From the IMG/VR virus record IMGVR_UViG_3300033571_016891, positions 1-54,676 of that record: a DNA stretch of 54,676 nt; one strand, 5' to 3'. This DNA comes from a virus. Shown here one piece after another: positions 4,919 to 53,607 of the stretch (its first letter is position 1; each line of letters starts with the position of its first letter). The translations under genes and the position numbers were made by a program. The notes beneath the pieces were generated by a model, which saw only the letters and a list, made by a program, of their open reading frames with translations, was not told where the DNA came from and did no database searches.

Positions 4919-4951
4919 ATTATGATTTACACATAATATTAATAACTTTAA

Positions 4952-9779: not shown

Positions 9780-10898
9780 TTATCCATTAACCATGTCATT
9801 TATATCTATTCCACGAATAACCGCCTTTAATTCGTCCATGGAAGATAATCTCGCAGCCTCCTGCTTTAAGTTTTCTTTTTGGGCTTCAGCTAGTAATATG
9901 ATACCCTTTCTTCTTTCCTCATCTTTCCATGCTTGTACTAAATTTAAAATACTGGCATTCTCATCTTTACGCTGCTGTAGGCGTTTAGACCTATCATCAA
10001 CAAGGGATTTATACAATTTTTGCTGTCGAGATCTACATTGGTTATATTCTGTATGTAGATTATTTATAGCGTCATTAAGTTGCATTTTAATATTTCTACC
10101 CTCGCCATCTCCACTACTATTTCTTAACATCTCTCTCAATTCTTCTACTTGCTGTAAAACACTTGCGGCAGTAACTACTTCAGTACATAGAACAATAAAC
10201 TGATCCAACTCTTCCTGACTAAGCGCTTCCTTGTCATACGTATATCTTATGAAAGCATCTTCAAATAACTGCCGATCTCCAGAAGTTTTATATGTATTTA
10301 TCTGATAACAAAAACTAAAAGTATTTAAATATCTTTGCAGTACATCAATTTGTTTTAACTGCGACGCTTTTAAAACGTCGAGTGACCAACCTAAATTTAA
10401 ATATTTATTTATTCTAAACAGAACCTGATCTTGCCTTCTGGGTGGGAAGTAAGCGCCCACTGGGGTTTCCGCATCCCTATCGGGGTTATAATTAATAGTT
10501 TCCAGATGTTCTGGATCTTGCTTTTGCAAAGACTGTATGTAAGCATTCACCTCCCTACATTCAAGAGTTACATGTGTTAACCTGTCATTAGTAAATAGTG
10601 TTTTTGCTAATTCAACATAATGCTGATCTTTATAATTATTTTTAATAAATTCCTTTTGCTCGTCCGTTAATTCAACCCTCTCTCTTTGGGTAACTGACTT
10701 GTTTTTATAAGTAATTTTATTATCAAGTAAAAATTTCTTTACATTCCGCCCTTCCTTACTTCTACTATCAATAGAATCGTCCTGATATGCATACGCAGTT
10801 AACTCAGTAATTGTTGCATCTGGGTTTTTGGCCACCAATTCTCTTATCCTCTGTTTTTGCTCTGGCAGTAAATCTGCATCAGTTATCTCTTCGCTCAT
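9780..10898 (-). CDS. Putative small terminase/DNA-binding packaging protein
   Basis: A 372-residue hydrophilic, mostly helical protein. The N-terminal 100 residues contain two helix-turn-helix-like stretches (around ITELTAYAYQD and YVELAKTLF), and the C-terminal 120 residues are strongly charged and likely coiled coil (QQRKDENAS..., EERRKGIILLAEAQKENLK). It lies two genes upstream of the large terminase on the same strand and overlaps the sigma-like gene by 4 bp. DNA binding plus coiled coil next to TerL suggests a terminase small subunit, but it is longer than usual and no family signature was recognised. Confidence 0.4.
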   Translation of the reverse strand: MSEEITDADLLPEQKQRIRELVAKNPDATITELTAYAYQDDSIDSRSKEGRNVKKFLLDNKITYKNKSVTQRERVELTDEQKEFIKNNYKDQHYVELAKTLFTNDRLTHVTLECREVNAYIQSLQKQDPEHLETINYNPDRDAETPVGAYFPPRRQDQVLFRINKYLNLGWSLDVLKASQLKQIDVLQRYLNTFSFCYQINTYKTSGDRQLFEDAFIRYTYDKEALSQEELDQFIVLCTEVVTAASVLQQVEELREMLRNSSGDGEGRNIKMQLNDAINNLHTEYNQCRSRQQKLYKSLVDDRSKRLQQRKDENASILNLVQAWKDEERRKGIILLAEAQKENLKQEAARLSSMDELKAVIRGIDINDMVNG

Positions 10899-11587
10899 AG
10901 TATTTCCTTTGCAAGTTCTCTAGCTTTTTGTAAAACTTTAGATTTAATTTTACTTATTTGTCTATAAGCTGGCCTGCCATCTTTATAACTTAATTTATAT
11001 CCCATTTTTTTTGCTATAGCGGCCTCCTCTAAGTGCTGTAAAAACATTAAATCATATAATTTCCATTCAATATTCGACAAGTTTTTTTTCATTATATCGT
11101 TAAATGATGGAATCATTCCTTCGATATCCATATAAGATTCCTTGCTTTCTATAAGAGACTCTAAATTTGTTTCTGGATTTTGTGTGTTTGGAGTATGTAT
11201 GCTTACTGGAAATTTTATATCATAAGCATTCTTTTTTGTTTTTTCCCATTTAGAATAAGATTTACAAGAATTGTTCTGTGTCCCGTATACCGAGCAATTA
11301 TGGTCTCCGGTATTGTATGGACATTTTAAACATGGTCGTGAAAAATTTGAATAATGATTTCTTAACATGTTCGTAATCTGATGGTTAATTACTTGATTTA
11401 ACCAAGGTCTTAATGGCCTTACGTCATCCCATTTATCCCATTTATTATAAATATGAATCCTAAGCCTCTGTGATACATCTTGAAAATCCATCCAAGCAAT
11501 AGCAGTTAAGTGCCAGCGATTTTTACGTTTACTAATTTCTTCATCAATAATATCAATACTATCTTCAAATGAAGGCTTTATTGTCAT
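10895..11587 (-). CDS. Phage sigma factor (gp55-like) with Cys-rich insertion
   Basis: A 230-residue protein. Residues about 30-80 (DFQDVSQRLRIHIYNKWD ... RPWLNQVINHQITNMLR) resemble sigma region 2, which binds core polymerase and opens the -10 box. The last 60 residues (IEWKLYDLMFLQHLEEAAIA ... RQISKIKSKVLQKARELA) resemble a sigma region 4 helix-turn-helix. Between them lies a compact Cys cluster (CLKCPY, HNC, NSC), a probable metal site not typical of sigma factors. A small divergent sigma beside packaging genes recalls T4 gp55, which directs late transcription. It may read the GTGTAATAT-like boxes seen upstream of late genes; that link is inference. Confidence 0.6.
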   Translation of the reverse strand: MTIKPSFEDSIDIIDEEISKRKNRWHLTAIAWMDFQDVSQRLRIHIYNKWDKWDDVRPLRPWLNQVINHQITNMLRNHYSNFSRPCLKCPYNTGDHNCSVYGTQNNSCKSYSKWEKTKKNAYDIKFPVSIHTPNTQNPETNLESLIESKESYMDIEGMIPSFNDIMKKNLSNIEWKLYDLMFLQHLEEAAIAKKMGYKLSYKDGRPAYRQISKIKSKVLQKARELAKEIL

Positions 11588-12209: not shown

Positions 12210-12219
12210 GTGTAATATT
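12210..12219 (+). promoter_or_regulatory. Late-type GTGTAATATT box
   Basis: GTGTAATATT lies 6 nt before the ATG at 12226, and its core matches the minus-strand boxes at 17462, 18823 and 51842. Recurrence on both strands immediately before genes supports a promoter element. Confidence 0.5.
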
Positions 12220-17461: not shown

Positions 17462-17471
17462 TATATTACAC
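17462..17471 (-). promoter_or_regulatory. Late-type GTGTAATATA box
   Basis: On the minus strand GTGTAATATA sits 7 nt before the ATG of the beta-repeat surface protein. Confidence 0.5.
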
Positions 17472-18935: not shown

Positions 18936-19167
18936 AATTAGTCGCGCGTAGCAGTGGCGAGCTGCGGAGATTTCTGAATAATGTAGTTTTATTATTAGTG
19001 GAGATTGAAATTTGACCCTACCGGCATCTTACCCGGTCTTACAACGTCAATTTTTCGGAAAAAGGGGGGGGTATGCCTATGTGTGCGTGTTGTCATACAT
19101 ACTCACACTCAAAATAAAACAAAAATAATTCTTGCATTCTTTGCATGAATGACCCTAGTATAGACGC
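18936..19167. other. Intergenic strand-switch region
   Basis: No gene is seen in these 232 nt. They hold a GC-rich patch, a run of eight G (19064-19071), two copies of a TCWTACA-type word (19034, 19092), and at the right end the early promoter of the tiny-gene operon. Confidence 0.5.
19132..19167 (+). promoter_or_regulatory. Early promoter, predicted leaderless (18-nt spacer)
   Basis: TTGCAT, 18 nt, TAGTAT, then 6 nt and the ATG at 19168. Confidence 0.6.
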
Positions 19168-19275
19168 ATGAACAATAAGAACACGCAGACGCTCGACGAG
19201 AGGATCGCAGAGGCTAATCGTAAGGCCGCACAGATCGCCCTTGCCAACCTCAAGGCTGATCCCTTGAATCAGTAA
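19168..19275 (+). CDS. Tiny Ala/Asn-rich helical protein
   Basis: A 35-residue polar, probably helical peptide (MNNKNTQTLDERIAEANRK...). First gene of a run of seven tiny plus-strand genes (19168-20074). Its promoter has the -10 box exactly 6 nt before the ATG. Function unknown. Confidence 0.55.
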   Translation: MNNKNTQTLDERIAEANRKAAQIALANLKADPLNQ

Positions 19276-19321
19276 TAAAAAAAACTTTACAACACACCAC
19301 AAAACAACCACACTAGAACAA

Positions 19322-19435
19322 ATGAAACACCACATCAAAACGCTCCTAATCCTCATCGACTTTATCGCCTTTGGTCTTGTCGCGCTGTTTGCGGTCGGCT
19401 CGCTTGTCCTTGCAATGCAGGCTTTCTCACACTAA
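19322..19435 (+). CDS. Small single-span membrane protein
   Basis: A 37-residue peptide with one hydrophobic helix covering most of its length (LLILIDFIAFGLVALF...). Second gene of the tiny-gene operon. It is a candidate membrane-acting early peptide; function unknown. Confidence 0.5.
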   Translation: MKHHIKTLLILIDFIAFGLVALFAVGSLVLAMQAFSH

Positions 19436-19445
19436 TCTCTCTACC

Positions 19446-19541
19446 ATGAAACGCATCGCTTTCCTTGTCTTACTTACCATAATCACCATGCTTCCCTTCG
19501 CTGGTATCCTTTACTACGCTGACCAACTCTGTAACCACTAA
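19446..19541 (+). CDS. Small membrane peptide
   Basis: A 31-residue peptide, hydrophobic from residue 4 to 24 (IAFLVLLTIITMLPFAGIL). Its stop overlaps the ATG of the next gene in a TAATG junction, a sign of translational coupling. Confidence 0.5.
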   Translation: MKRIAFLVLLTIITMLPFAGILYYADQLCNH

Positions 19542-19600
19542 TGGAACTTCTTTTGATTTCTTTTGTGATTGCTGTTGCAATCTATCACAACAACGCATAG
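19541..19600 (+). CDS. 19-residue membrane peptide (MELLLI family)
   Basis: MELLLISFVIAVAIYHNNA is almost wholly one hydrophobic helix. It overlaps the previous stop codon. A related peptide beginning MELLLI lies at 26821, which supports it being real despite its length. Confidence 0.45.
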   Translation: MELLLISFVIAVAIYHNNA

Positions 19601-19609
19601 AATAAACGC

Positions 19610-19756
19610 ATGATCCTCGCCATCTACAAACTATCACAACAATTCTTCCATCGCTCTGCATACCATGGTCGCAGGGGAAACCCTGTCAGGATGTGGGTTA
19701 GCTACTATATCAGTCAGGCATTGCTTGAGACAAAGACATTCATCCAATCACGATGA
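19610..19756 (+). CDS. Small basic protein, unknown
   Basis: A 48-residue basic protein with several aromatic residues (QQFFHRSAYHGRR). Its TGA overlaps the next ATG (ATGA). Function unknown; the call rests on tight operon packing. Confidence 0.5.
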   Translation: MILAIYKLSQQFFHRSAYHGRRGNPVRMWVSYYISQALLETKTFIQSR

Positions 19757-19902
19757 ACATTGTCACACAACTGCAATGCAAGAAGGCGTTTGCCGAATGG
19801 TGCGCCCTGCATCGCATACCCATTAAGAAGTATCCTGCTTACGGCTTGCGCCTGTATGGTATATGGGAACGCAAATGGAATAGAAGGTACAACACTGTAT
19901 AA
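19753..19902 (+). CDS. Small basic protein, unknown
   Basis: A 49-residue basic protein rich in Trp, Arg and Lys (GIWERKWNRRYN near the end), suggestive of nucleic-acid or ribosome contact but with no family recognised. Overlaps the previous gene by 4 bp; the next ATG follows after 1 nt. Confidence 0.5.
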   Translation: MNIVTQLQCKKAFAEWCALHRIPIKKYPAYGLRLYGIWERKWNRRYNTV

Positions 19903-19903
19903 C

Positions 19904-20074
19904 ATGAAGAAGATCATAGTAGAATCAAGATGGAAGGGTGACACCAAGTGGAGCTATCGTGCCGAGCTAGTAGGTAGCACAGAGACCAAGGCCCTGCTAC
20001 AATACTATAAGCTTGTCGCACAAGATGAGCGGCTCAGGTGCAAGAATGAATATAGGGTAAGGCTAGTGGAATAG
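19904..20074 (+). CDS. Small protein, unknown
   Basis: A 56-residue protein (MKKIIVESRWKGDTKWSY...) with alternating strand-like and helical stretches, last gene of the tiny operon. Start at 19904 is preferred to an upstream in-frame ATG because it sits just after the previous stop. It ends next to repeat R1. Confidence 0.55.
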   Translation: MKKIIVESRWKGDTKWSYRAELVGSTETKALLQYYKLVAQDERLRCKNEYRVRLVE

Positions 20075-20075
20075 C

Positions 20076-20121
20076 TAAAGCCCTGAGAATCAACGACTTA
20101 CAACGCCGGGCCCCGCCGGGC
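20076..20121 (+). repeat. Composite hairpin/GC-block repeat R1
   Basis: Contains the right arm ATCAACGACTTAC and the block GCCGGGC-CCC-GCCGGGC. First of about 14 copies; followed by a GACAATTGT palindrome. Confidence 0.75.
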
Positions 20122-20280
20122 ATACGATGCAAGACAATTGTATGACAACATAATAAGCGAAGATGGTCGCGTGTGGCGCGGCTTTCTTCGCCGGTAGTGT
20201 CAAGCCTTTTCGCAAAAAAAAGTTTACAAAAAAGAAAAAAATATCTTCTAAAAAAGGCCGCCATGCCCTATCTTAAAACC

Positions 20281-20490
20281 ATGAAGAACAAGACCGCCCC
20301 TCTCAACTTTGACAACGTGTGCAACATCCGCACTTACCTCGCCCTTTCGATCAAGGGGGAAATCAAGTCACGACGCGAAACTGTGACTTACTGGGGCGCA
20401 TCTAGCGCAATGGCTAAACTGCACAATCAGCGTGTGCGTGACATGGTCATGGCATACAGGGCGGCGAAAGGAATCGAAATAAAGTTTTGA
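20281..20490 (+). CDS. Small early protein, copy A of a duplicated gene
   Basis: A 69-residue basic protein. It is clearly paralogous to the gene at 24303-24509: both share LNF(D/N)NVCNIRT(Y/F)LA and then EIKSRRE.V.YWGA, and RDM..AYRA near the end. A TATCTT box 6 nt before the ATG fits the leaderless pattern. The conserved Arg/Lys/Trp core suggests a small regulatory or DNA-binding protein; function unknown. Confidence 0.7.
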   Translation: MKNKTAPLNFDNVCNIRTYLALSIKGEIKSRRETVTYWGASSAMAKLHNQRVRDMVMAYRAAKGIEIKF

Positions 20491-20515
20491 CACGGCAACA
20501 CCAAAAGACGAAACT

Positions 20516-20752
20516 ATGAATATGAAAACCGACATCACACACAACACCACCTCCGAACTCATGCTCCGCGCCGTTAACGACCGCGAGCTTTCCACCCTCG
20601 TTGAGAGGAGCTTTGAGGAGTGCGACTTGGGGATCATCAAGCGTCAACTGATGAGGGCCTTTGTTTACACAGGGGCGCAGATGACGGCCTTTGAGCAGGA
20701 ATGGGCGTTGTCATACAATGAATGGTATTGGGAAAATTGCCCGAACGAATAA
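20516..20752 (+). CDS. Small acidic early protein
   Basis: A 78-residue acidic, helical protein ending in an aromatic cluster (EQEWALSYNEWYWE). It follows the previous gene by 25 nt and the next ATG starts 4 nt after its stop. Function unknown. Confidence 0.6.
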   Translation: MNMKTDITHNTTSELMLRAVNDRELSTLVERSFEECDLGIIKRQLMRAFVYTGAQMTAFEQEWALSYNEWYWENCPNE

Positions 20753-20756
20753 TCAC

Positions 20757-20888
20757 ATGAACACCGAACGCTTTGTCATACAAGTGAAAGACATCCGCAA
20801 GCGTCAACGCTTTGCACCCCTGCAGAAGTTAATTGCTTCAAAAAAGCTCTATAAAAGGAGAGCTAAACATCGGGCCGAACGGGATTAA
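20757..20888 (+). CDS. Small Lys/Arg-rich protein
   Basis: A 43-residue strongly basic peptide (KDIRKRQRFAPLQKL, then KKLYKRRAKHRAERD). Probably binds nucleic acid; function unknown. Start chosen at the ATG just after the previous stop. Repeat R2 follows. Confidence 0.5.
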   Translation: MNTERFVIQVKDIRKRQRFAPLQKLIASKKLYKRRAKHRAERD

Positions 20889-20890
20889 CA

Positions 20891-20936
20891 CAAAGCCCTG
20901 ATAATCAACGACTTACGAAGCCGGGCCCCGCCGGGC
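20891..20936 (+). repeat. Composite hairpin/GC-block repeat R2
   Basis: TGATAATCAACGACTTAC followed by the GCCGGGC direct repeat. Downstream on the minus strand lies TTGACA, 18 nt, TATAAC (20963-20992), a possible antisense promoter reading back through the block. Confidence 0.75.
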
Positions 20937-21035
20937 GCGCGTTGTCTTACAATCTCTTACTTGTTATATCATAGTTGCTCAGCCAGTGTCAAGCATTTTC
21001 TGCAAAAAAAATTTAAAAAAACAAAAAAATACCTG

Positions 21036-21070
21036 TTGCTTTTCTCATGGGCGCATGATACATTTTAATC
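21036..21070 (+). promoter_or_regulatory. Early promoter, predicted leaderless
   Basis: TTGCTT, 17 nt, TACATT, 6 nt, then ATG at 21071. Confidence 0.55.
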
Positions 21071-21289
21071 ATGAAAACGAAACTGACACTAAACGGAAGG
21101 GAAGTTGATTCCCAGTCAATCAACATTGAAGGCGTGAATCGCGCTGACTATCCAGACTTCGCAGATGCCTTCATCGGTGAGGCGGTTTGGATGAACGATG
21201 GAACTGCCTTGGATGACGAGGAGTTAGAGCAACTCACCGAGGAAAATGGCGAACTGGTAAACCAGTTGGCGCATGAAAACTTTTTCTAA
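21071..21289 (+). CDS. Conserved small acidic phage-type protein
   Basis: A 72-residue acidic protein: LTLNGREVDSQSINIEGV, then DYPDFADAFI.EA and DDEELEQLTEENGELV. The order strand-strand-DYPDF-acidic helix is familiar from small hypothetical proteins of bacteria and phages, with no known function. It has its own predicted leaderless promoter. Confidence 0.65.
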   Translation: MKTKLTLNGREVDSQSINIEGVNRADYPDFADAFIGEAVWMNDGTALDDEELEQLTEENGELVNQLAHENFF

Positions 21290-21296
21290 TCTCCTG

Positions 21297-21330
21297 TTGA
21301 CAAAATCGCAAAAACTGAAATAATCAAATC
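21297..21330 (+). promoter_or_regulatory. Early promoter, predicted leaderless (16-nt spacer)
   Basis: TTGACA, 16 nt, AATAAT, 6 nt, then ATG at 21331. Confidence 0.5.
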
Positions 21331-21642
21331 ATGAACAACACGAACACCAAAGAAGCAATCAGGGAACAGGCAAAGCAGAAACTCGCCGCGCTTGTGGTTG
21401 GCAAGGTCTACTCTCACGAAAACGAAACTTTCGTTTACGAGGGCGACGACCGCGCAACTCTTCGCAACATGTCGGTTTCTAGCGGTGATGTTCCGTTGCT
21501 TCGGCATGACGGAAATCTGGTGAACATGTCTGTCCTCCTTGGTCTCAAGGAGTCTTACATGAGCAGGGAGGAGTTTGATGCGTCTTACAGCAACACCTCT
21601 AACGCCATGACTGAATGGTGCCACAAAAACAATCAATACTAA
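21331..21642 (+). CDS. Small early protein, unknown
   Basis: A 103-residue soluble protein with a helical N-terminus (KEAIREQAKQKLAALVVGKV) followed by a strand-rich centre (ETFVYEGDDRATLRNMSVS). No family recognised. It follows the 72-residue gene by 41 nt and has its own TTGACA/AATAAT promoter. Confidence 0.6.
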   Translation: MNNTNTKEAIREQAKQKLAALVVGKVYSHENETFVYEGDDRATLRNMSVSSGDVPLLRHDGNLVNMSVLLGLKESYMSREEFDASYSNTSNAMTEWCHKNNQY

Positions 21643-21653
21643 TATAATATAAC

Positions 21654-21755
21654 ATGAGCCTACATAGAATCTCACTACATATAAATTGCTTGATTAATAG
21701 GCCAAAAAATTGGCGTTTCTACATGTTAGGTATTCTGAGAGAGCTGTCTCTATAA
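21654..21755 (+). CDS. Doubtful 33-residue ORF
   Basis: MSLHRISLHINCLI... follows the previous gene by 11 nt, but it overlaps a small terminator-like hairpin (GCCAA-AAAA-TTGGC at 21701-21714), so this stretch may be the 3' untranslated end instead. Confidence 0.25.
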   Translation: MSLHRISLHINCLINRPKNWRFYMLGILRELSL

Positions 21756-21798
21756 AGTGTTGAGGATCAGGGACTTACAGAGCCCGGCCCCGCCGGGC
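21752..21798 (+). repeat. Composite hairpin/GC-block repeat R3
   Basis: TTGAGGATCAGGGACTTAC plus a hybrid block (GCCCGGC-CCC-GCCGGGC). A strong minus-strand promoter (TTGACT, 17 nt, TATACT at 21828-21800) ends right at its edge. Confidence 0.7.
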
Positions 21799-21870
21799 AA
21801 GTATACTGTAAGACAAGCGAGTAGTCAAGTATAAAATAAAAAATAATTTTTAATTTGATGAAAGTTTTTA

Positions 21871-21904
21871 TTGCGTTCTGGTGGCCTCTTGCTATTCTGT
21901 ATCT
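21871..21904 (+). promoter_or_regulatory. Early promoter, predicted leaderless (16-nt spacer)
   Basis: TTGCGT, 16 nt, TATTCT, 6 nt, then ATG at 21905. Confidence 0.55.
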
Positions 21905-22180
21905 ATGAACAACATCAACACCACCACCGATCTCACCGCCGCCTCTGTCGTTCTCGACGACCTCCTTTGTCGTCAGCAATGCGAGGAGGTTTACGAGCCC
22001 ACACACGCAGAGCTGCAAGCCCGTGAGGACGCGATCCATGCGCGTGAAATGGCGGAATACGAGGCGAGTATGATGGAGGCAGATAAGGCCGCTTGTCCTA
22101 CAGCGGAAGACCCCGTAGACCTCTATGGGGGCGACGACTACTACAACGAGTATATAGAAGGAGATCAGGGGGAGTGGTAA
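21905..22180 (+). CDS. Small acidic helical early protein
   Basis: A 91-residue, strongly acidic, Ala/Glu-rich protein with a long helix (HAELQAREDAIHAREMAEYE) and an acidic C-terminal tail rich in Asp, Glu and Tyr. Acidic small proteins in early regions often mimic DNA or inhibit host enzymes, but nothing specific is shown here. The start is set by the promoter geometry (-10 box 6 nt upstream). Confidence 0.6.
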   Translation: MNNINTTTDLTAASVVLDDLLCRQQCEEVYEPTHAELQAREDAIHAREMAEYEASMMEADKAACPTAEDPVDLYGGDDYYNEYIEGDQGEW

Positions 22181-22223
22181 ATCCATAATAGCCAAGCACT
22201 TACAGCGCCCGGCCCCGCCCGGC
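22177..22223 (+). repeat. Composite hairpin/GC-block repeat R4
   Basis: Right arm CACTTACAGC and the mirror block GCCCGGC-CCC-GCCCGGC, followed by TTGTCATACA. It overlaps the stop codon of the preceding gene. Confidence 0.7.
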
Positions 22224-22302
22224 GCGCGTTGTCATACATTCTCGCACCACGTGTTGTCAAGCCATTTCTCCCATCCGGTCGAAATTTTTTTATAAATAAT
22301 TA

Positions 22303-22336
22303 TTGCACACGGATCCCTTTGTGGTATTCTCTAATC
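22303..22336 (+). promoter_or_regulatory. Early promoter, predicted leaderless (16-nt spacer)
   Basis: TTGCAC, 16 nt, TATTCT, 6 nt, then ATG at 22337. Confidence 0.55.
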
Positions 22337-22468
22337 ATGGAAAACGAAATGAACCCGAAGGAACTAGCAATGGATGATCTCGCCGCCTATGCCGCCGAAT
22401 ACGAGGCATGGATTGACGAGATGGAAAAACTCGTCGCAGAGCATGGCAACCCGAATGCTTGGTTCTGA
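22337..22468 (+). CDS. Small acidic early peptide
   Basis: A 43-residue acidic helical peptide (ELAMDDLAAYAAEYEAWIDE). The start follows a -10 box by 6 nt. First gene of a seven-gene run to 24134. Function unknown. Confidence 0.55.
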   Translation: MENEMNPKELAMDDLAAYAAEYEAWIDEMEKLVAEHGNPNAWF

Positions 22469-22471
22469 TAC

Positions 22472-22506
22472 TTGACAACTGAATAAAAATCCTTTTTAAT
22501 TACTTT
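22472..22506 (+). promoter_or_regulatory. Early promoter, predicted leaderless
   Basis: TTGACA, 17 nt, TTTAAT, 6 nt, then ATG at 22507. It starts 3 nt after the previous stop codon. Confidence 0.6.
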
Positions 22507-22773
22507 ATGAAAAACACCACAAAGCAAATCGGTATCATCGCAATCGTCGCCCTCTCCTTTGGACTGGTTGACTCACTCGCAACTTCCCTCTACTGGCGGC
22601 ATCTCGCCATTAAGCACGGCGCGGCATTCTATGAAACAAATAGCTGGGGCATTCCTAGCTTCAAATGGAACGATGTCTCGTTCGCACAAGCTCCGTTTCA
22701 AGACGGCACTTACTATTCAAAGAAAATGGAAGAGGCTGAAAGCAAGCGCGTCCGTTCCCTTGGTATCAAATAA
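22507..22773 (+). CDS. Small membrane-anchored early protein
   Basis: An 88-residue protein with one N-terminal hydrophobic segment (about residues 8-28, IGIIAIVALSFGLVDSLATS), which could be an anchor or a signal sequence, and a polar domain ending KKMEEAESKRVRSLGIK. Function unknown. Confidence 0.6.
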   Translation: MKNTTKQIGIIAIVALSFGLVDSLATSLYWRHLAIKHGAAFYETNSWGIPSFKWNDVSFAQAPFQDGTYYSKKMEEAESKRVRSLGIK

Positions 22774-22782
22774 GAAAACAAT

Positions 22783-22989
22783 ATGACTAAAAAACACTTC
22801 ATTAAAATAGCTTCAAAGATAAAGCCCCTAATGGAAAGTGGGGAAGTGGATTACTGGAAGGGTAGAGAGATGATTGATGCCCTCTGTGATACCTTCAAGG
22901 ACATTAATCCAAACTTCAACCAAGCAACATTCAAAAAAGCGTGTGCATATGATTCCTTGCACAATGCAATCAATAGCCTTAAAGTCTAA
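22783..22989 (+). CDS. Small early protein, unknown
   Basis: A 68-residue basic helical protein (MTKKHFIKIASKIKPLMES...). It follows the membrane-anchored protein by 9 nt, so it is in the same transcript. No family recognised. Confidence 0.6.
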   Translation: MTKKHFIKIASKIKPLMESGEVDYWKGREMIDALCDTFKDINPNFNQATFKKACAYDSLHNAINSLKV

Positions 22990-22999
22990 AAATAATAAT

Positions 23000-23227
23000 A
23001 TGATTAAAAACAATTTTAATAAAATGGATTTTGATCTTATGCTTAATGCCTTTGAAGAGGCAACGGCAAATGTTCCTCGCCGTGAGATGGTAAAGAAACT
23101 CCTGCAAATACAGGTTGAGCGTGATGCGGCAATTACCTTTGGCCTTGCGTTCTGCGAGACTACCGGCAATGTCTCTGGACTGATTAACGACTTCCGCGCA
23201 TTCGCAAGGGCAATCGGAGAGGCTTGA
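23000..23227 (+). CDS. Small helical early protein
   Basis: A 75-residue helical protein (FDLMLNAFEEATANVPRREM then KKLLQIQVERDAAITFGLAF). The ATG at 23000 is chosen because it directly follows the previous stop by 10 nt. Its TGA lies within the TTGACA of the next promoter. Function unknown. Confidence 0.6.
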   Translation: MIKNNFNKMDFDLMLNAFEEATANVPRREMVKKLLQIQVERDAAITFGLAFCETTGNVSGLINDFRAFARAIGEA

Positions 23228-23258
23228 CACTATAACCAAAAAATATACTCATCATAGT

Positions 23259-23465
23259 ATGAAAAACAAGAAAGCCCCAACAGCCCTAACAAAGGAAGAG
23301 ATTGCCGACCTTATCATTTCTTCTATTACTGATTACGATGTAGGCTGGGCTACACTTGCAAACCCAGTTGTCACTTCCAACGCAAAGATGACCAGATTCT
23401 TTATCGAATCGACTCAATGGAATACAGCCGATCAGAAGTTTAAGATTACCATCGAAGAGGCTTGA
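23259..23465 (+). CDS. Small early protein, unknown
   Basis: A 68-residue protein with a helical N-terminus (TKEEIADLIISSITDYDVGW) and strand-like C-terminus. Upstream TTGACA, 17 nt, a weak ACTCAT box and 6 nt fit the leaderless geometry. Its own 3' end and following spacer (GAGGCTTGACC...ATAACCAAAAAATA) nearly copy the spacer before it, a local duplication of the promoter. Confidence 0.55.
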   Translation: MKNKKAPTALTKEEIADLIISSITDYDVGWATLANPVVTSNAKMTRFFIESTQWNTADQKFKITIEEA

Positions 23466-23496
23466 CCCCATAACCAAAAAATACTTTAATAAGATT
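23462..23496 (+). promoter_or_regulatory. Early promoter, predicted leaderless
   Basis: TTGACC, 17 nt, TTTAAT, 6 nt, then ATG at 23497. The TTGA overlaps the stop codon of the gene before. Confidence 0.6.
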
Positions 23497-23715
23497 ATGA
23501 ACAAGGAACTCTCTGAAAAAATTGTATTACTCATGAGTGCAGTTTGTCTTGGGGGATTAATTGTATTCCTTAACGCTGTTCTGGTAGCCTTTCTCTGGAA
23601 CTGGCTAATGCCCGCAATTTTCGGAATCAAGACGATTACCTATCTCCAAGCGATAGGCATTACTTGGCTTGCTCAAATACTTTTTAAGTCTAGCAATTCA
23701 AATAAAAATAGCTAA
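23497..23715 (+). CDS. Small membrane protein
   Basis: A 72-residue protein with two hydrophobic helices (about residues 8-28 and 45-64) and a short basic, Asn-rich tail. Likely inner-membrane. Function unknown. Confidence 0.6.
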   Translation: MNKELSEKIVLLMSAVCLGGLIVFLNAVLVAFLWNWLMPAIFGIKTITYLQAIGITWLAQILFKSSNSNKNS

Positions 23716-23719
23716 TACT

Positions 23720-23893
23720 ATGACTATGACAGACCCCAACCACGACGAAAACGAACCCGAAATCTACAACGATGAGCATGAGCTTGGTCATACGCCGAGA
23801 GACATGGACGAACCACGGGAGAGTCAGCCAGACGATTATCTGGATGCATCCTATGAAGATCGTTTTGATATAGGAGATGATTATGGAGTTTAA
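23720..23893 (+). CDS. Small very acidic protein
   Basis: A 57-residue protein dominated by Asp, Glu, Pro and His (DPNHDENEPEIYNDEHE). Likely disordered. The 3' end overlaps the next gene. Function unknown; strong negative charge would suit a DNA mimic, which is only a guess. Confidence 0.5.
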   Translation: MTMTDPNHDENEPEIYNDEHELGHTPRDMDEPRESQPDDYLDASYEDRFDIGDDYGV

Positions 23894-24134
23894 TCTTGAA
23901 GAACTTTTGGAAAGGGTGGATCCCGATGTTCTCAAGGCAGACGGCTTTGATGATGCGGTAATCGGCGTTGCTTCTCGTTGCGGTTCCGTTGATGTTCTGG
24001 CATACGATGTCGAGAAAATAATTCTCAAACTAATGTTGGACGGAATGAGTCGCGAAGAGGCTGAAGAATACTTTGAATTTAACATCCTTGGCGCATATGT
24101 CGGAGAGTATACGCCAGTATTCATAAGTCGCTGA
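23883..24134 (+). CDS. Small acidic early protein
   Basis: An 83-residue acidic helical protein (LEELLERVDPDVLKADGF ...). The ATG at 23883 is favoured over 23877 because an AGGAG Shine-Dalgarno sits 6 nt before it, one of few clear ribosome sites in this island. It overlaps the previous gene and its TGA is part of the left arm of repeat R5. Confidence 0.6.
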   Translation: MEFNLEELLERVDPDVLKADGFDDAVIGVASRCGSVDVLAYDVEKIILKLMLDGMSREEAEEYFEFNILGAYVGEYTPVFISR

Positions 24135-24168
24135 TAATCAAAGGGTTACAGCGCCCGGCCCCGCCCGG
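24124..24168 (+). repeat. Composite hairpin/GC-block repeat R5
   Basis: ATAAGTCGCTGATAATCA, then GGGTTACAGC and the block GCCCGGC-CCC-GCCCGG. A minus-strand promoter TTGACA, 17 nt, TATAAG lies just beyond (24225-24197). Confidence 0.75.
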
Positions 24169-24302
24169 TAAACAATGCAAGACAATTGTCATACATCTTA
24201 TATCATAGTGCGCGAATCTTGTCAAGCCTTTTCGCAAAAAAAAGTTTCGCCTAGCCGCATTTTTTTCTGGGTTTTTTTGTGGGCGCATAGTATTCTTTAA
24301 TC

Positions 24303-24509
24303 ATGAAAAAGAAAGCATCCCTCAACTTCAACAATGTCTGCAACATCCGCACCTTCCTCGCGATTTCAATTCAGAACGAAATCAAGAGCCGTCGCGAAGC
24401 GGTGAAATACTGGGGCGCGACTAGCGGACTTGTGAAGCTACAGAACAACCGCATCCGCGACATGATCGGCGCATATAGGGCATCACAAAGCATCGAAATC
24501 GTCTCTTGA
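24303..24509 (+). CDS. Small early protein, copy B of a duplicated gene
   Basis: A 68-residue basic protein paralogous to 20281-20490, sharing NVCNIRTFLA, EIKSRREAV, YWGA and RDMIGAYRA-type blocks. A TATTCT box 6 nt before the ATG fits the leaderless pattern, and the promoter surroundings (GGGCGCAT..) match those of the 21071 gene. Function unknown. Confidence 0.7.
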   Translation: MKKKASLNFNNVCNIRTFLAISIQNEIKSRREAVKYWGATSGLVKLQNNRIRDMIGAYRASQSIEIVS

Positions 24510-24575
24510 CACCACGCACAAAAATTGTAAAAATAGAATCACACTAAACACCAACACAACCAACAAAACAAAACA

Positions 24576-24845
24576 ATGAAAAAACTAAACCTCAACCTCA
24601 TGTTCATCAAGATTGCTTATGCCATCGGATTGTGCAAGACCTACCGCATCGTTTACAAGGCAGAGTCGAATCGCTTTGAGCCGAAGGAGTATCATGTTTC
24701 CCGTCCTTTCGGAAAGTTCTTCTATAAAGAGGACAAGGGTGTCAACTCTCCTGCTGGCGAGGGAATCACCTGTTATGTCCCTGCTGTGGATGATATCCGT
24801 AGGTTCCGCTTGGATCGCATTGTCAGGTTTGAACTGATCGCCTAA
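24576..24845 (+). CDS. Small protein with WYL-like C-terminal strand motif
   Basis: An 89-residue basic protein. The pattern TYRIVYKAESNRFEPKEYHV and the ending RRFRLDRIVRFELIA recall the beta-barrel part of WYL-type ligand-sensing domains (..R.F.LDRI..), but the domain would be incomplete. A rho-independent terminator follows 8 nt after the stop. Function unknown; the resemblance is weak. Confidence 0.5.
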   Translation: MKKLNLNLMFIKIAYAIGLCKTYRIVYKAESNRFEPKEYHVSRPFGKFFYKEDKGVNSPAGEGITCYVPAVDDIRRFRLDRIVRFELIA

Positions 24846-24853
24846 TTGCCTTG

Positions 24854-24890
24854 CTCGACTAGGGGGAAGCGTCTCCCTAGTCGGGCTTTT
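24854..24890 (+). terminator. Rho-independent terminator
   Basis: CGACTAGGG and CCCTAGTCG form a 9-bp stem, followed by GGCTTTT. Confidence 0.85.
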
Positions 24891-24907
24891 GTCGTAAACA
24901 AATAAAA

Positions 24908-25333
24908 ATGCAATTAAAAACAAATGCAACAGACGGAGGCCGCTCTAGTTCTGGAATCGAAGAGAAAGGAGATTGCACAATCCGAGCTTTGGCGATTAGT
25001 GCAGGCATCCCATACAAATTTGCGCACAAGATCGGAGCGGAAGCAGGACGCAAGAATAAAAAAGGATTTAGTCCAGAAAAACTTTTGAAGTATGCCAAAC
25101 GAGAGTATGGCATAGCATATAAGAAAAAGCATTACAAAAGTGTAACGATTGGGAGGTTCATTAAAGAGAACCCAACTGGTCGCTACTATGTCGCAACTAA
25201 TGTTCACGCTTTTGCTATCATAAACGGAACAATTTACGACACGGGATTAAATCGTCCGCTTCAGCGTCTAGAAGAGGCTTACTTAATATCTAATCATCGC
25301 CTAACATACCTCCGAGAGACGCAATCTTTCTAA
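24908..25333 (+). CDS. Papain-fold cysteine-peptidase-like protein
   Basis: A 141-residue protein. GDCTIRALAISAGIPYKFAH near the N-terminus gives a candidate catalytic Cys23, and NVHAFAIINGTIYD near residue 105 a candidate His and Asp, the C-H-D order of papain-like peptidase folds found in small phage proteins. Whether it is active is unknown. It stands alone between a terminator and repeat R6; its stop TAA begins the left arm of R6. Confidence 0.5.
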   Translation: MQLKTNATDGGRSSSGIEEKGDCTIRALAISAGIPYKFAHKIGAEAGRKNKKGFSPEKLLKYAKREYGIAYKKKHYKSVTIGRFIKENPTGRYYVATNVHAFAIINGTIYDTGLNRPLQRLEEAYLISNHRLTYLRETQSF

Positions 25334-25376
25334 GTCGCTGATCTTCAACTACTTACAACGCCGGGCCCCGCCGGGC
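25331..25376 (+). repeat. Composite hairpin/GC-block repeat R6
   Basis: TAAGTCGCTGA and TCAACTACTTA form the arms, followed by GCCGGGC-CCC-GCCGGGC and GTTGTCTTACAA. Confidence 0.75.
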
Positions 25377-25394
25377 GAGTTGTCTTACAATGTC

Positions 25395-25476
25395 GAAGCC
25401 GCATAAACACAGGCTCTAGAAGCAGGGCATGGGCTGGGGATTGAATAACCCACGGAGCCGCATAAACACAGGCTCT
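25395..25476 (+). repeat. Two-hairpin element E2, copy a
   Basis: Two copies of AGCCGCATAAACACAGGCT (25397 and 25456), each a small hairpin, start 59 nt apart. The same arrangement and spacing recur at 26998-27079. Unknown function. Confidence 0.65.
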
Positions 25477-25531
25477 GCGGGCTGTCAACAAGTTTCGCAC
25501 AAAAAAAGTTTCAGAAAAAGTGAAAAAGGTT

Positions 25532-25566
25532 TTGCAATCCGTCGCGCCTGATCGTAGTCTTTACCT
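25532..25566 (+). promoter_or_regulatory. Early promoter, predicted leaderless
   Basis: TTGCAA, 17 nt, TAGTCT, 6 nt, then ATG at 25567. Confidence 0.6.
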
Positions 25567-26073
25567 ATGACAACCAACACAACGCAACCCCCACACGCAA
25601 CCCTTCACGCCTTCGCTAACGAGATGATTTCATGTTATGGAAACGGCTTGGCACTTGGCCTTTCTGGAACCAAGACACAGATCGAACGCTCTTTCAATCG
25701 TTTTTTCAATCTCGGAATTGCAGGGGCAAATGTCACAAGCAACATCGACGAGGAGGGAGGATGGGCAAGCAACGGGCAAACGCTGGGAGATGGTTTCCTG
25801 CACTACATTGGCGAGAGATTCGCCTACTTCTTGACAACTGAAGCCGACATCGTGCGCGGTCTTACATGGGAAAACATTAGGCTTTGGCAAGATTCTCCAA
25901 TCTCCGCGCAATACAAGGGCAACGCCGAAAAGTTCAAAGCGGATGCACTACAAGCGGCAACGGATACTTTCAAGGCACTACCAAGGGAAAACTTCATGGG
26001 CTGGTCAACTGATCGTGTGCCAGAGGGTCACGCAATCCGCGAAGGTCAAAGTGACTGGTGCAATAATGAATAA
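25567..26073 (+). CDS. Early protein of unknown function
   Basis: A 168-residue soluble protein with alternating helices, Trp-rich towards the end (ENFMGWSTDR, SDWCNNE). No signal peptide, membrane segment or catalytic motif is evident. It follows the two-hairpin element and a leaderless-type promoter, and precedes the GP88-like gene by about 50 nt. Confidence 0.6.
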   Translation: MTTNTTQPPHATLHAFANEMISCYGNGLALGLSGTKTQIERSFNRFFNLGIAGANVTSNIDEEGGWASNGQTLGDGFLHYIGERFAYFLTTEADIVRGLTWENIRLWQDSPISAQYKGNAEKFKADALQAATDTFKALPRENFMGWSTDRVPEGHAIREGQSDWCNNE

Positions 26074-26125
26074 AATTGTAAAAAATATCTTTACCGAACA
26101 ACGAAACTCTGCCAACATATAAACC

Positions 26126-26806
26126 ATGAAACTCCTATCACCAAACAACACGAAAATCAAAAAGGGCGAAAAACTCGGTTGGCTTACGCTTGGCCTGTCC
26201 CTGTCACCTTACAATCTTTCCGGCAAAAACTTTTGTTCCCATGCTTCGGCAGGATGCGCGGCGGCTTGCCTCAACACTTCGGGCATGGGTGTTTTTTCTA
26301 ATGTGCAAGCGGCACGACTGAAAAAGTCGCGTTACTTCATCGAACAAAAGGAAACTTTCCTTGGACAACTGAACAAGGAAATCCGTTCGGCAATTAAAAC
26401 CTCAAAGCGGAAGGGCATGAAGCTCGCGGTGCGTCTAAATGTGCTTTCGGATCTCCCTTGGGAAAATCTTATCGACATGAAAGAGTTCCAAGATGTCACC
26501 TTTTACGACTACACGCCGAACCCTAAACGCATGATCGCACACTTGCGCGGTGAGTTGCCGAAAAATTATCACCTTACCTTTTCAAGAAAGGAAAATAATC
26601 AGGCAATGGTTGAATTGATTGCAAGCATGGGCGGAAACATCGCGGCGGTGTTTGCTGGTTCACTCCCTGAAACCTACCTTGGAAAAAAGGTTGTGAACGG
26701 CGACGACACCGATCTACGCTTTCTGGATGACAAGGGTGTGATCGTCGGCCTAGTCGCCAAGGGCAAGGGCAAGAAAGACGCTTCGGGCTTTGTCCTTCAG
26801 CCCTAA
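26126..26806 (+). CDS. GP88-like phage protein
   Basis: A 226-residue protein resembling the phage 'gene product 88' family: LGLSLSPYNLSGKNFCSHA, then a Cys-rich CAAACLNTSGMG, followed by a stretch (KLAVRLNVLSDLPWENL) and FYDYTPNP that recall a radical-SAM-like or TIM-barrel arrangement in that family. The family is widespread in phages and its activity is not established; the Cys cluster suggests metal or iron-sulphur binding. The identification is from remembered family features. Confidence 0.55.
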   Translation: MKLLSPNNTKIKKGEKLGWLTLGLSLSPYNLSGKNFCSHASAGCAAACLNTSGMGVFSNVQAARLKKSRYFIEQKETFLGQLNKEIRSAIKTSKRKGMKLAVRLNVLSDLPWENLIDMKEFQDVTFYDYTPNPKRMIAHLRGELPKNYHLTFSRKENNQAMVELIASMGGNIAAVFAGSLPETYLGKKVVNGDDTDLRFLDDKGVIVGLVAKGKGKKDASGFVLQP

Positions 26807-26820
26807 CCGGATGTCATACA

Positions 26821-26883
26821 ATGGAACTTTTACTAATATGCTTTTTAGTGGCCACAATAATTCACTTAAATCTAAAGAGATAA
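26821..26883 (+). CDS. 20-residue membrane peptide (MELLLI family)
   Basis: MELLLICFLVATIIHLNLKR is a single hydrophobic helix with a basic tail. It resembles the 19-residue peptide at 19541 (MELLLISFVIAVAIYHNNA), which supports both being translated. It follows the GP88-like gene by 14 nt. Confidence 0.4.
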   Translation: MELLLICFLVATIIHLNLKR

Positions 26884-26929
26884 AAAAGGAGAAGGAAATG
26901 CGCTAATATAACATCGCCAGAACCGGATC

Positions 26930-26979
26930 GCCGTAAGTTGCTGAATATCAACGACTTGCGGCACCGGGCCCCGCCGGGC
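26930..26979 (+). repeat. Composite hairpin/GC-block repeat R7 (best hairpin)
   Basis: GCCGTAAGTTGCTGA and TCAACGACTTGCGGC pair along 15 positions with one mismatch and two G-T pairs around a 3-nt loop, then the GC block follows. This copy shows the hairpin most clearly. Confidence 0.8.
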
Positions 26980-26997
26980 GGTTTGTCTTACAACGTC

Positions 26998-27079
26998 GAA
27001 GCCGCATGAATACAGGCTGTAGGGGTGGGGTACCGGCTGCGGATCAAATAGCCAGCCGAGCCGCATAAACACTAGCTCT
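26998..27079 (+). repeat. Two-hairpin element E2, copy b
   Basis: AGCCGCATGAATACAGGCT and AGCCGCATAAACACTAGCT start 59 nt apart (27000 and 27059), matching copy a in arrangement. Confidence 0.65.
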
Positions 27080-27172
27080 ATAACTGTCAACAGAAATCGT
27101 GAAAATGAAATCGCACAAAATTGTAAAAAAGGTATTGTGTCGCACCGAAAAAAGTAGGATGATTAGAACCTA

Positions 27173-27961
27173 ATGAAAGCACTAAACCTCACACTACACT
27201 GCGGCGGTCATGAAGTCTCCACGGAGCAGGTCGCAAACTCCATCACCCCTAACGCCACCGAGTCGTGGCATCCAATCCCGCACTCTCGCATCATCGAGGG
27301 ACTGCGCGAGACGGTCGCAACCGCTGGCCTTGAAATCGTGCAGGAGCGTCATGCTCTCGCTCGTGACGGTCAACGCTACTTCGGCCTTTTCCAAGTGTCG
27401 GGCATTCCTAACTTTTCCCTAGCGGAAACCGTGGGGACTGTTATCGGCTTGCGTAACTCTCACGACAAGTCATTCCCTGCTGGCATCAACGCTGGTTCCG
27501 CGCCTTTCGTGTGCGACAACCTCGCGTTTCACAACGAGATCAAGATCGCTCGTCGTCATACAAAGTTCATCTTGCGTGACCTTCCCATGCTTCTTGCTGG
27601 AGCGTTCGGCAAGCTCACCTCTGCATGGGGCAACCACGCGAAGCGTGTGGAGGCTTACCAGTCCTGCACTATCAACGACAAGGACGCTCACGATACCATC
27701 GTCAAGGCGTATCGTTGCGGCGCGGTCTCCAAGACTGCCCTTGCGGACGTGGTCGCACAATGGCACGAACCCGAACACGCGGTGTGGGGTTCCGAGCGCA
27801 ATCTGTGGGGTCTTCACAACGCCTTCACCAATGTCCTGCGCGGTAACGCAATGGCCTTGCCTCGTCGCTCGGACGCACTTCACGCCTTGCTCGACCCTCT
27901 GGCAGGGATCGCGGCCCAACAGGTCGTGGAGGCTCAGGATGCGGTTCTTGTAGAAGCCTAA
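27173..27961 (+). CDS. DUF932-like phage/plasmid protein
   Basis: A 262-residue protein with the recognisable run of DUF932 family members: WHPIPHSRIIEGLRETV, then VIGLRNSHDKSFPAGINAGS and FVCDNLAFHNEIKIARRHT. The family is common on phages and plasmids; its role is unknown, with a link to DNA maintenance suspected. It has a terminator immediately downstream. The codon usage is clearly GC-rich compared with the structural genes. Confidence 0.7.
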   Translation: MKALNLTLHCGGHEVSTEQVANSITPNATESWHPIPHSRIIEGLRETVATAGLEIVQERHALARDGQRYFGLFQVSGIPNFSLAETVGTVIGLRNSHDKSFPAGINAGSAPFVCDNLAFHNEIKIARRHTKFILRDLPMLLAGAFGKLTSAWGNHAKRVEAYQSCTINDKDAHDTIVKAYRCGAVSKTALADVVAQWHEPEHAVWGSERNLWGLHNAFTNVLRGNAMALPRRSDALHALLDPLAGIAAQQVVEAQDAVLVEA

Positions 27962-27979
27962 CATCTAGCCTAACATCAG

Positions 27980-28010
27980 CCGCTCCCGACTAACATCGGG
28001 CGCGGTTTTT
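27980..28010 (+). terminator. Rho-independent terminator
   Basis: CCGC-T-CCCGA and TCGGG-C-GCGG pair (9 bp with a T/C mismatch), followed by TTTTT. Confidence 0.85.
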
Positions 28011-28032
28011 GCTTGGTACGATTCCAATCTGT

Positions 28033-28079
28033 GTAAATGGTTGAACGTCAACAACTTACGGCGCCCGGCCCCGCCCGGC
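28033..28079 (+). repeat. Composite hairpin/GC-block repeat R8
   Basis: GTAAATGGTTGA and TCAACAACTTAC arms, then GCCCGGC-CCC-GCCCGGC; followed by GACAATTGTCATACAA. Confidence 0.75.
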
Positions 28080-28191
28080 CAACAATGCAAGACAATTGTC
28101 ATACAAGCTCTTATATGTCTTACTACCTATGACTAGTGATATGTGTCAAGCTTTTCTTAATAAATTAATTTTTATTCGTTGAAGATTTTTA

Positions 28192-28226
28192 TTGTGGTTT
28201 TTGTAATATGGCGATATACTGAATGT
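28192..28226 (+). promoter_or_regulatory. Early promoter, predicted leaderless
   Basis: TTGTGG, 17 nt, TATACT, 6 nt, then ATG at 28227. Confidence 0.55.
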
Positions 28227-28424
28227 ATGAAAAATAAGATCAAGTACGACATGGATGCCGTCTTAAAGGCTCGGGACTTCTTTGAAGCTATGAATGAAGC
28301 CAAGAAGGCGATGAAAGAGTATGATGAGTGCGATGGACCCGATTCTAACTTCTGGAGGGTGCCTGAGTCTATTCAGAGGCGATACTACATGAGCATGGAG
28401 ACATTCGGCAAATTCTTGGCTTGA
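28227..28424 (+). CDS. Small early protein, unknown
   Basis: A 65-residue helical, charged protein (VLKARDFFEAMNEAKKAMKE). Its TGA stop lies inside the TTGAAT -35 box of the next gene's promoter. Function unknown. Confidence 0.6.
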   Translation: MKNKIKYDMDAVLKARDFFEAMNEAKKAMKEYDECDGPDSNFWRVPESIQRRYYMSMETFGKFLA

Positions 28425-28455
28425 ATGTTCCTTTAAAGTACCTTATACTGATCGT
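28421..28455 (+). promoter_or_regulatory. Early promoter, predicted leaderless
   Basis: TTGAAT, 17 nt, TATACT, 6 nt, then ATG at 28456; the -35 box overlaps the preceding stop codon. Confidence 0.65.
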
Positions 28456-28704
28456 ATGAAAAATAAAGAAACGTTCATTAAAATGTGCTCACCCTCCTTT
28501 GTTAAAGACCTTCTGAAGGAGGCTAAGAGGGTCAAATACCTCATCGAGAAGGACGACATGTCATTCATCGTACGCGATGATGAGACTAACAATCTGGTCT
28601 TTAAAGGTATCCGAATGAATAGGACCTTCTATGCCGTTAACTTCTCTAAGAAGTACTGGGTGGAACCGGTCGGTCGAGACTACAAGGCCGAACAGCTCCA
28701 ATAG
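28456..28704 (+). CDS. Small basic early protein
   Basis: An 82-residue basic protein (LLKEAKRVKYLIEKDDMSFIV, then strand-like FKGIRMNRTFYAVNFSKK). No family recognised. Confidence 0.6.
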   Translation: MKNKETFIKMCSPSFVKDLLKEAKRVKYLIEKDDMSFIVRDDETNNLVFKGIRMNRTFYAVNFSKKYWVEPVGRDYKAEQLQ

Positions 28705-28706
28705 AC

Positions 28707-28741
28707 TTGCAGTTCCTTTTGAATTCCTTTATACTAATCAC
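28707..28741 (+). promoter_or_regulatory. Early promoter, predicted leaderless
   Basis: TTGCAG, 17 nt, TATACT, 6 nt, then ATG at 28742. It starts 2 nt after the previous stop codon. Confidence 0.65.
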
Positions 28742-28942
28742 ATGAAAGTAACACGCACCTCGCCCTTCACGGGCATCACCCGCACCCTCAACCTCAACAT
28801 CACTGCCGTACAGGTGGCGAGGTACAACAACGGATGGCTGTTGCAAGACGCCTTCCCTCAACTCTCCGATGGTGAGCGCGAGTTCTACAAGACGGGCATC
28901 ACGGATGAGGAGTGGGAGCAAACAATGGGAGGCGACGAGTAA
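28742..28942 (+). CDS. Conserved small phage protein (TSPFTG family)
   Basis: A 66-residue protein of a familiar small phage and bacterial type: MKVTRTSPFTG.TRTL at the start, then AFPQLSDGEREFYKTGIT.EEW near the end. Function unknown, but the conserved pattern gives good confidence that the ORF is real. It precedes repeat R9, which is inverted. Confidence 0.7.
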   Translation: MKVTRTSPFTGITRTLNLNITAVQVARYNNGWLLQDAFPQLSDGEREFYKTGITDEEWEQTMGGDE

Positions 28943-28970
28943 CGCCGAAAGCGCCTGTCTTACAAGGTAG

Positions 28971-41351: not shown

Positions 41352-41436
41352 TGGTGCTCTAGGAGAGACTCGAACTCTCACGCCTTGCGGCACGGGTGCC
41401 TAAAACCCGGGCGTCTGCCAATTCCGCCACCAGAGC
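41352..41436 (-). tRNA. tRNA-Leu (TAG)
   Basis: Acceptor GCTCTGG/CTAGAGC; anticodon TAG in loop TTTAGGC; long variable arm (TGCCGCAAGGCGT), CCA encoded; 85 nt. Normal class II shape. Confidence 0.88.
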
Positions 41437-53601: not shown

Positions 53602-53607
53602 GTAACC

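Follow-up and report, generated by a model that had tools for sequence, protein, structure and literature searches.

Host-type promoters six nucleotides before the start codon and predicted leaderless mRNAs in a phage lineage nearly free of Shine-Dalgarno sites

Where does the mRNA of a phage gene begin if its promoter lies so close to the gene that transcription would be expected to start at the start codon itself? This question is raised by the virus record IMGVR_UViG_3300033571_016891 (positions 1 to 54,676; this whole stretch of 54,676 nucleotides [nt] is called the window here), in which many small open reading frames (ORFs) follow closely behind promoter-like boxes. A sequence-only reading had noticed that the -10 box stands exactly 6 nt before the ATG of at least ten of these genes and had predicted leaderless mRNAs. 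Taken together, the results make it very probable that this lineage, nearly free of Shine-Dalgarno (SD) sites, combines leaderless early mRNAs from sigma-70 promoters with late mRNAs that are probably leaderless as well and probably driven by a phage sigma factor. Genes are called early or late here solely by their own type and that of their promoter.

The 6-nt gap in the window

The pattern TTGnnn-(15-19)-TAnnnT-6-ATG was counted in the window and in shuffled-sequence controls. On the plus strand of region 18901-29000 it occurred 10 times with a gap of 6 nt between the -10 box and the ATG, compared to 0.24 on average in shuffled sequence (at most 2 in any of 500 shuffles), and every other gap gave 0 to 2 occurrences. 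In the whole window, both strands included, 24 occurrences were counted versus 5.15 +/- 2.2 in shuffled sequence (maximum 12 in 200). An excess over shuffles, which the sequence-only reading had proposed as a check, was therefore present at both scales. A simple promoter scanner placed the region barely above shuffles (21 versus 13.5), because most -10 boxes here fit TAnnnT and not TATAAT; the signal is the gap to the ATG, not the quality of the boxes. Several gap-6 ATG matches are not gene starts: those at 41438 (-) and 32458 (-) belong to tRNA promoters, and several others lie inside genes.

All sites listed by the sequence-only reading were present. Among its 11 main sites, a full TAnnnT lies exactly 6 nt before the ATG in eight (19168, 21071, 21905, 22337, 25567, 28227, 28456 and 28742). 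The other three have a -10 box matching at five of six positions at this distance, which falls outside TAnnnT (21331, AATAAT; 22507 and 23497, TTTAAT), and their -35 boxes are strong (TTGACA, TTGACA and TTGACC, respectively). The fits claimed at the -10 box for 20281 and 24303, and on the minus strand for 39347 (6 nt) and 33844 (7 nt), were also found, and sites 33380 (-) and 43868 (-) could be added. The -35 box overlaps the previous stop codon, as had been claimed, at 23259, 23497 and 28456 (TGA within TTGA), the -10 box at 23259 lying 9 nt from the ATG. The promoters, given as -35 box, spacer length, -10 box and gap to the ATG with the product length in amino acids (aa), are as follows.

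19132..19170 (+): TTGCAT-18-TAGTAT-6-ATG, 35-aa ORF 19168-19275; G003 and G017 homologues also gap 6
20269..20283 (+): TATCTT-6-ATG, -35 box poor, 69-aa ORF; gap 6 in the G003 and G004 orthologs, not in G017
21036..21073 (+): TTGCTT-17-TACATT-6-ATG, 72-aa ORF 21071-21289
21297..21333 (+): TTGACA-16-AATAAT-6-ATG, 103-aa ORF 21331-21642
21871..21907 (+): TTGCGT-16-TATTCT-6-ATG, 91-aa ORF 21905-22180
22303..22339 (+): TTGCAC-16-TATTCT-6-ATG, 43-aa ORF 22337-22468; gap 6 in 3/3 orthologs
22472..22509 (+): TTGACA-17-TTTAAT-6-ATG, 88-aa ORF 22507-22773; gap not conserved in orthologs
23462..23499 (+): TTGACC-17-TTTAAT-6-ATG, 72-aa ORF 23497-23715; stop of the upstream ORF within the -35 box
24291..24305 (+): TATTCT-6-ATG, no clear -35 box, 68-aa ORF
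25532..25569 (+): TTGCAA-17-TAGTCT-6-ATG, 168-aa ORF 25567-26073; gap 6 in G003, G004 and G017, not in the distant G022, G015 and G021
28192..28229 (+): TTGTGG-17-TATACT-6-ATG, 65-aa ORF 28227-28424
28421..28458 (+): TTGAAT-17-TATACT-6-ATG, 82-aa ORF 28456-28704; stop of the upstream gene within the -35 box
28707..28744 (+): TTGCAG-17-TATACT-6-ATG, 66-aa ORF 28742-28942 (phrog_20898); gap 6 in 6/6 orthologs
33378..33415 (-): TTGACG-17-TAAACT-6-ATG, 164-aa ORF 32886-33380; G004 ortholog gap 6
33842..33880 (-): TTGCCA-17-TATAGT-7-ATG; gap 7 in G004 too
39345..39383 (-): TTGACT-18-TACTAT-6-ATG, 107-aa ORF 39024-39347
43866..43903 (-): TTGCAT-17-TATCAT-6-ATG, UvdE-like UV endonuclease 42957-43868; all six orthologs gap 6

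The tandem promoter copies before 23259 and 23497 (window 23224-23499) share GAGGCTTGACxCxATAACCAAAAAATA, with the -10 box at 9 and 6 nt from the ATG, respectively.

The gap across the phage family

The window is 99.98% identical to IMGVR_UViG_3300032324_000909 (G001, 140.5 kilobases [kb]), which is the same genome and not independent of the window in the counts of relatives. Since the window crosses both contig ends of G001 at positions 40734-40856, with a 123-base overlap common to the two ends, this contig seems to represent an entire genome of about 140.4 kb with a circular map.

A sharp peak at exactly 6 nt was present in all 13 related uncultivated phage records. The counts at gap 6 compared to the mean at other gaps were 28 versus 3.0 in G001, 26 versus 1.7 in G005 and 26 versus 2.4 in G019, and the distant phage G020, with a guanine-plus-cytosine (GC) content of 49%, gave 54 versus 2.65. 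No gap-6 peak was found in the annotated control phages T4, MaeS and DSS3_MAL1. The Thermus phage phiYS40 showed at most a faint one, with 6 of its 17 TTGAC-type promoters at 5-10 nt. When ORF starts behind a perfect TTGACA were sorted by gap, none had gaps of 0-4; gap 5 occurred 4 times, gap 6 92 times, and gaps 7, 8, 9 and 10 occurred 16, 12, 16 and 5 times, respectively, with almost none beyond. Such a one-sided edge would be expected if RNA synthesis started at the A of the ATG: with a box any closer, the transcript would lose its start codon, and boxes farther away would leave a short leader. Short leaders are seemingly avoided by bacteria; in Lactococcus cremoris, leaders of 4-14 nt were not found (PMC10986495).

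Clustering of the encoded proteins grouped the 252 gap-6 starts into 166 clusters, and 39 of these occur in at least two genomes. At gap 6, ATG alone is enriched among the start codons (158 ATG, 3 GTG, 2 TTG and 2 CTG). The promoters consist of an A-tract at -45 to -40, TTG(A/C), a spacer of 16-17 nt and TAnnnT, and TGn is present in 35% of them versus 6% elsewhere. The TTGACA-like and TATAAT-like boxes stand 16-18 nt apart, as in sigma-70 promoters, and the sequence has a purine after a pyrimidine 7 nt past the -10 box, the Y(-1)A(+1) of a sigma-70 initiator. The base before the A of the ATG is C or T in 87% of cases, C alone making up 48% versus 13% in other genes. Judged by its sequence, the gap-6 unit is a complete sigma-70 promoter whose initiator doubles as the start codon. 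The known leaderless (TA-led) genes share this arrangement, with TAnnnT some 12 bp ahead of the start codon and no SD site. The promoters are often buried in the preceding gene, and in 26 of 142 gap-6 promoters of the relatives with a nearby upstream ORF end, the previous stop ends 30-31 nt before the ATG, within the -35 box. In one relative, the promoter-ATG unit TTGACACCTCCTCCTAAAGCATATAGAATAAGATTATG recurs near-identically (G017:983, 1235, 2171 and 5059), and it is also found in a second phage (G008:108358); these repeats are possibly duplicated early cassettes.

In orthologs the remaining promoter sequence has diverged, but the gap of 6 nt is kept. TAnnnT stands 6 nt before the start of uvdE in seven phages, including the six orthologs, at protein identities of 29-69%, and the six orthologs of 28742 keep the gap at identities down to 42%.

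SD-like tetramers before genes were at or only slightly above background in 14 of 14 records. With the same kind of measure, SD sites and controls were 44% versus 6% in T4, 56% versus 9% in MaeS and 30% versus 11% in phiYS40, compared to 6% versus 3% in G001. A phage gene for bS21, which would point to SD-less initiation of the Bacteroidetes type, was found in 0 of 15 records.

The tRNA genes provide an internal ruler for the distance from the -10 box to an RNA 5' end, as far as it can be read from sequence. The -10 box lies 8 nt before the mature 5' end of leading tRNA genes (7 cases in the set), and the tRNA 5' ends lie 2 nt beyond the gap-6 ATG matches at 41438 (-) and 32458 (-). Pre-tRNAs with a 5' leader of only about 2 nt are thus predicted, and the ruler counts in favor of leaderless starts. 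The two tRNA promoters of the window, which are not ORF starts, are as follows.

41436..41473 (-): promoter of tRNA-Leu(tag), TTGACA-17-TAATAT, 8 nt before the tRNA 5' end
32456..32493 (-): promoter of tRNA-Leu(taa), TTGACA-17-TATTAT, 8 nt before the tRNA 5' end

According to the mechanism proposed here, host-type sigma-70 promoters would be placed in such a way that the normal start point, the seventh base past the -10 hexamer, coincides with the A of the start codon. From each small gene, host RNA polymerase carrying its main sigma factor would then produce an mRNA with a 5'-terminal AUG, and the ribosome, presumably as a 70S particle with initiator tRNA, would bind this AUG directly without an SD site. 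The prediction of leaderless starts is supported by the shuffles, the gap scan, the 13 related records, the conserved gap of orthologs, Y(-1)A(+1), the restriction to ATG, the missing SD sites and the control phages. What the sequence-only reading had missed is that the prediction covers the entire phage family and, as it seems, the late promoters as well.

The late-type motif, the sigma-like protein and other genes

GTGTAAT was the most enriched 7-mer upstream of genes (108 genes versus 5 for the reversed word) and stands before structural-type genes. In ortholog clusters, the distance of GTGTAA[AT] to the start codon was 13 nt or less in 2 cases, 14 nt in 24, 15 nt in 11, 16 nt in 11 and 17 nt in 7, followed by a background of 0-4; this distribution, too, has a sharp edge, at 14 nt. 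In G020 the distance was 14 nt in 12 of 23 cases, and a gene common to 8 phages has a GTG start exactly 14 nt from the motif. The window contains the following copies and a candidate for the protein that may read them.

4926..4932 (-): GTGTAAA at 14 nt from the ATG, ORF 4334-4918
12210..12216 (+): GTGTAAT at 16 nt from the ATG, ORF 12226-12816
17465..17471 (-): GTGTAAT at 17 nt from the ATG, ORF 15523-17454
49438..49444 (-): GTGTAAA at 14 nt from the ATG, ORF 47070-49430 (tail-repeat protein)
51845..51851 (-): GTGTAAT at 16 nt from the ATG, ORF 50711-51835
10895..11587 (-): 230-aa sigma-70-region-2-like protein near the terminase; evidence weak but consistent

A Sigma70_r2 protein was found in 14 of 15 records, and the 230-aa protein is a candidate late sigma factor. 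Later in infection, it would probably redirect RNA polymerase to the GTGTAA[AT] promoters, which would be set with the start point 0-3 nt before the start codon. We infer that the late mRNAs are probably leaderless as well and driven by the phage sigma factor. ORF 15523-17454 (-), under one of the GTGTAAT motifs, encodes a 643-aa protein with a passenger-associated-transport-repeat (PATR, Pfam PF12951). The start at 3247 (-) fits gap 6; it was not counted as early because the late GTGTAA motif precedes the gene in several of the orthologs.

A transfer-messenger RNA (tmRNA) is encoded at window 53607-54043 (-) (Rfam RF00023, 79 bits); it was missed by ARAGORN. Full-length tmRNAs are also present in G002, G004, G007, G008, G016 and G020. 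The tmRNA had no match in cultured phages. The tag candidates are unusually long with 24-34 aa (AKVITNAVNAVKSAMTNVVEFFSEEESYALAA in the window). In addition to the tmRNA, the window contains 17 tRNA genes. Other genes of the phage include terminase, rIIA/rIIB, DNA polymerase III alpha, ribonucleotide reductase, DnaB, UvdE and sugar-modifying enzymes. The GC content is 46.5% in the early-type cluster (18900-29000), compared to 35-36% in the structural regions of the same phage. For the terminase, 188 relatives were found in IMG/VR, and none of the cultured phages had a close one; searches of cultured phages gave distant matches only, or none. In the search for a host, terminase family A1 had no relative in GTDB genomes, and the GDP-mannose dehydratase of the phage gave matches of only 26-28%.

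Alternative explanations and known systems

Several observations speak against leaderless starts or limit their reach. Gaps of 7-10 nt would yield leaders of 1-4 nt, and the -10 box at gap 6 is not kept in the orthologs of 22507 or in the distant orthologs of 25567. Many operon-internal genes have neither promoter nor SD site, so that leaderless starts do not account for all translation; these genes must rely on coupling or on an SD-less mechanism of the host. The sigma assignment is weak, as the Pfam match of the 230-aa protein (E value 1.9e-4) falls short of the cut-off and a low-confidence structure model (predicted template modeling score [pTM] 0.38) matched sigma chains at E values of about 2e-3. 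The operon-internal genes and the A-rich upstream regions would also suit mRNAs with leaders but without SD sites, whose real promoters lie upstream, the boxes near the ATG being incidental, and on whose A-rich leaders ribosomes assemble as in Bacteroidetes. This is unlikely in view of the one-sided edge at 6 nt, the finding that hardly any perfect promoter lies 11-25 nt from an ORF start, and the conservation of the gap in diverged orthologs. Moreover, Bacteroidetes promoters are of the TTTG/TAnnTTTG type, unlike the TTGACA/TAnnnT promoters found here.

An effect of chance or composition, picked out of an AT-rich genome by a pattern-seeking reader, was also considered, as TAnnnT and ATG are common and chance clearly accounts for some gap-6 matches beyond the early region. 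It was refuted by the shuffles and the relatives and has practically no probability left: the region gave 10 versus 0.24, G020 gave 54 versus 2.65 in spite of its 49% GC, and orthologs conserve the gap. The true start codons might lie elsewhere, the gap-6 ATG being misassigned, since many of the ORFs are small and without homologues and the register is shared by 99 of 153 homologous pairs, about one third not sharing it. This is very improbable, as only ATG is enriched at gap 6, the product of ORF 28742 aligns from residue 1 with proteins of cultured phages, and the ATG of uvdE is the true start because homology reaches residue 5 of the protein. A further explanation is compatible with leaderless starts and concerns their origin: they may be the host's own habit, as in Actinobacteria and Deinococcus-Thermus, with nothing special to the phage. 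Phages tend to match the initiation of their hosts. Predicted leaderless genes range from about 20% in Actinobacteria to 40% in Deinococcus-Thermus (PMC3160421). No WhiB was found in these phages, and strong TTGACA boxes are unlike the promoters of M. tuberculosis, in which no -35 motif was found (PMC3898074); even so, a host origin is given slightly better than even chances. The widest version of leaderless starts, a programme in which almost every transcription unit of an essentially SD-free genome, early (host sigma-70) and late (phage sigma), would start at the start codon, possibly tied to the phage's own tmRNA, is put at about an even chance.

Studies of leaderless initiation mostly treat it as an exception or as a trait of the host. 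Phages that used it for both of their temporal classes would offer a natural system for the recruitment of ribosomes by a 5' AUG, with a bearing on phage competition for ribosomes, and the finding suggests a host whose initiation system is unusual. Start sites could be assigned by a practical rule, according to which the start codon follows a -10 box at 6 nt or GTGTAA at 14 nt; it would apply to the large uncultivated set of terminase relatives, on which gene callers that rely on SD sites would go astray.

A search limited to an open-access library yielded no account of an SD-less phage lineage that places host-type as well as late-type promoters at the start codon. In bacteria, genes that lack a leader and carry TAnnnT close to the start codon are well documented (PMC3160421, PMC3898074). 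The TA-led genes of Actinobacteria and Deinococcus-Thermus (Zheng et al. 2011, PMC3160421) likewise have TAnnnT about 12 bp before the start and no SD site; in contrast, the present cases are phages with strong -35 boxes and dense arrays of small genes, and SD sites are missing from nearly the whole genome. The late promoters of T4, with a -10-like motif without a -35 box and with gp55, a small phage sigma-like protein, may be a parallel, but the motif is TATAAATA instead of GTGTAA[AT], T4 genes are SD-led, and a relation of the sigma-like protein to gp55 would be putative. The cI mRNA of lambda, the classical leaderless phage mRNA, is a single gene compared to dozens per genome here. Phage transcripts were called "often leaderless" in a paper on phage AR9 (PMC5312081). 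Phage phiYS40 is a lytic phage with abundant leaderless mRNAs of the middle and late classes (reviewed in PMC3594737) and SD sites at 30% versus 11%, whereas in the phages described here the host-type, presumed early class shows the leaderless geometry, as apparently does the presumed late class, with SD sites near absent. Leaderless mRNAs, those of phages included, are already known; judged by the literature searched, an entire SD-less phage lineage with this organization would be new.

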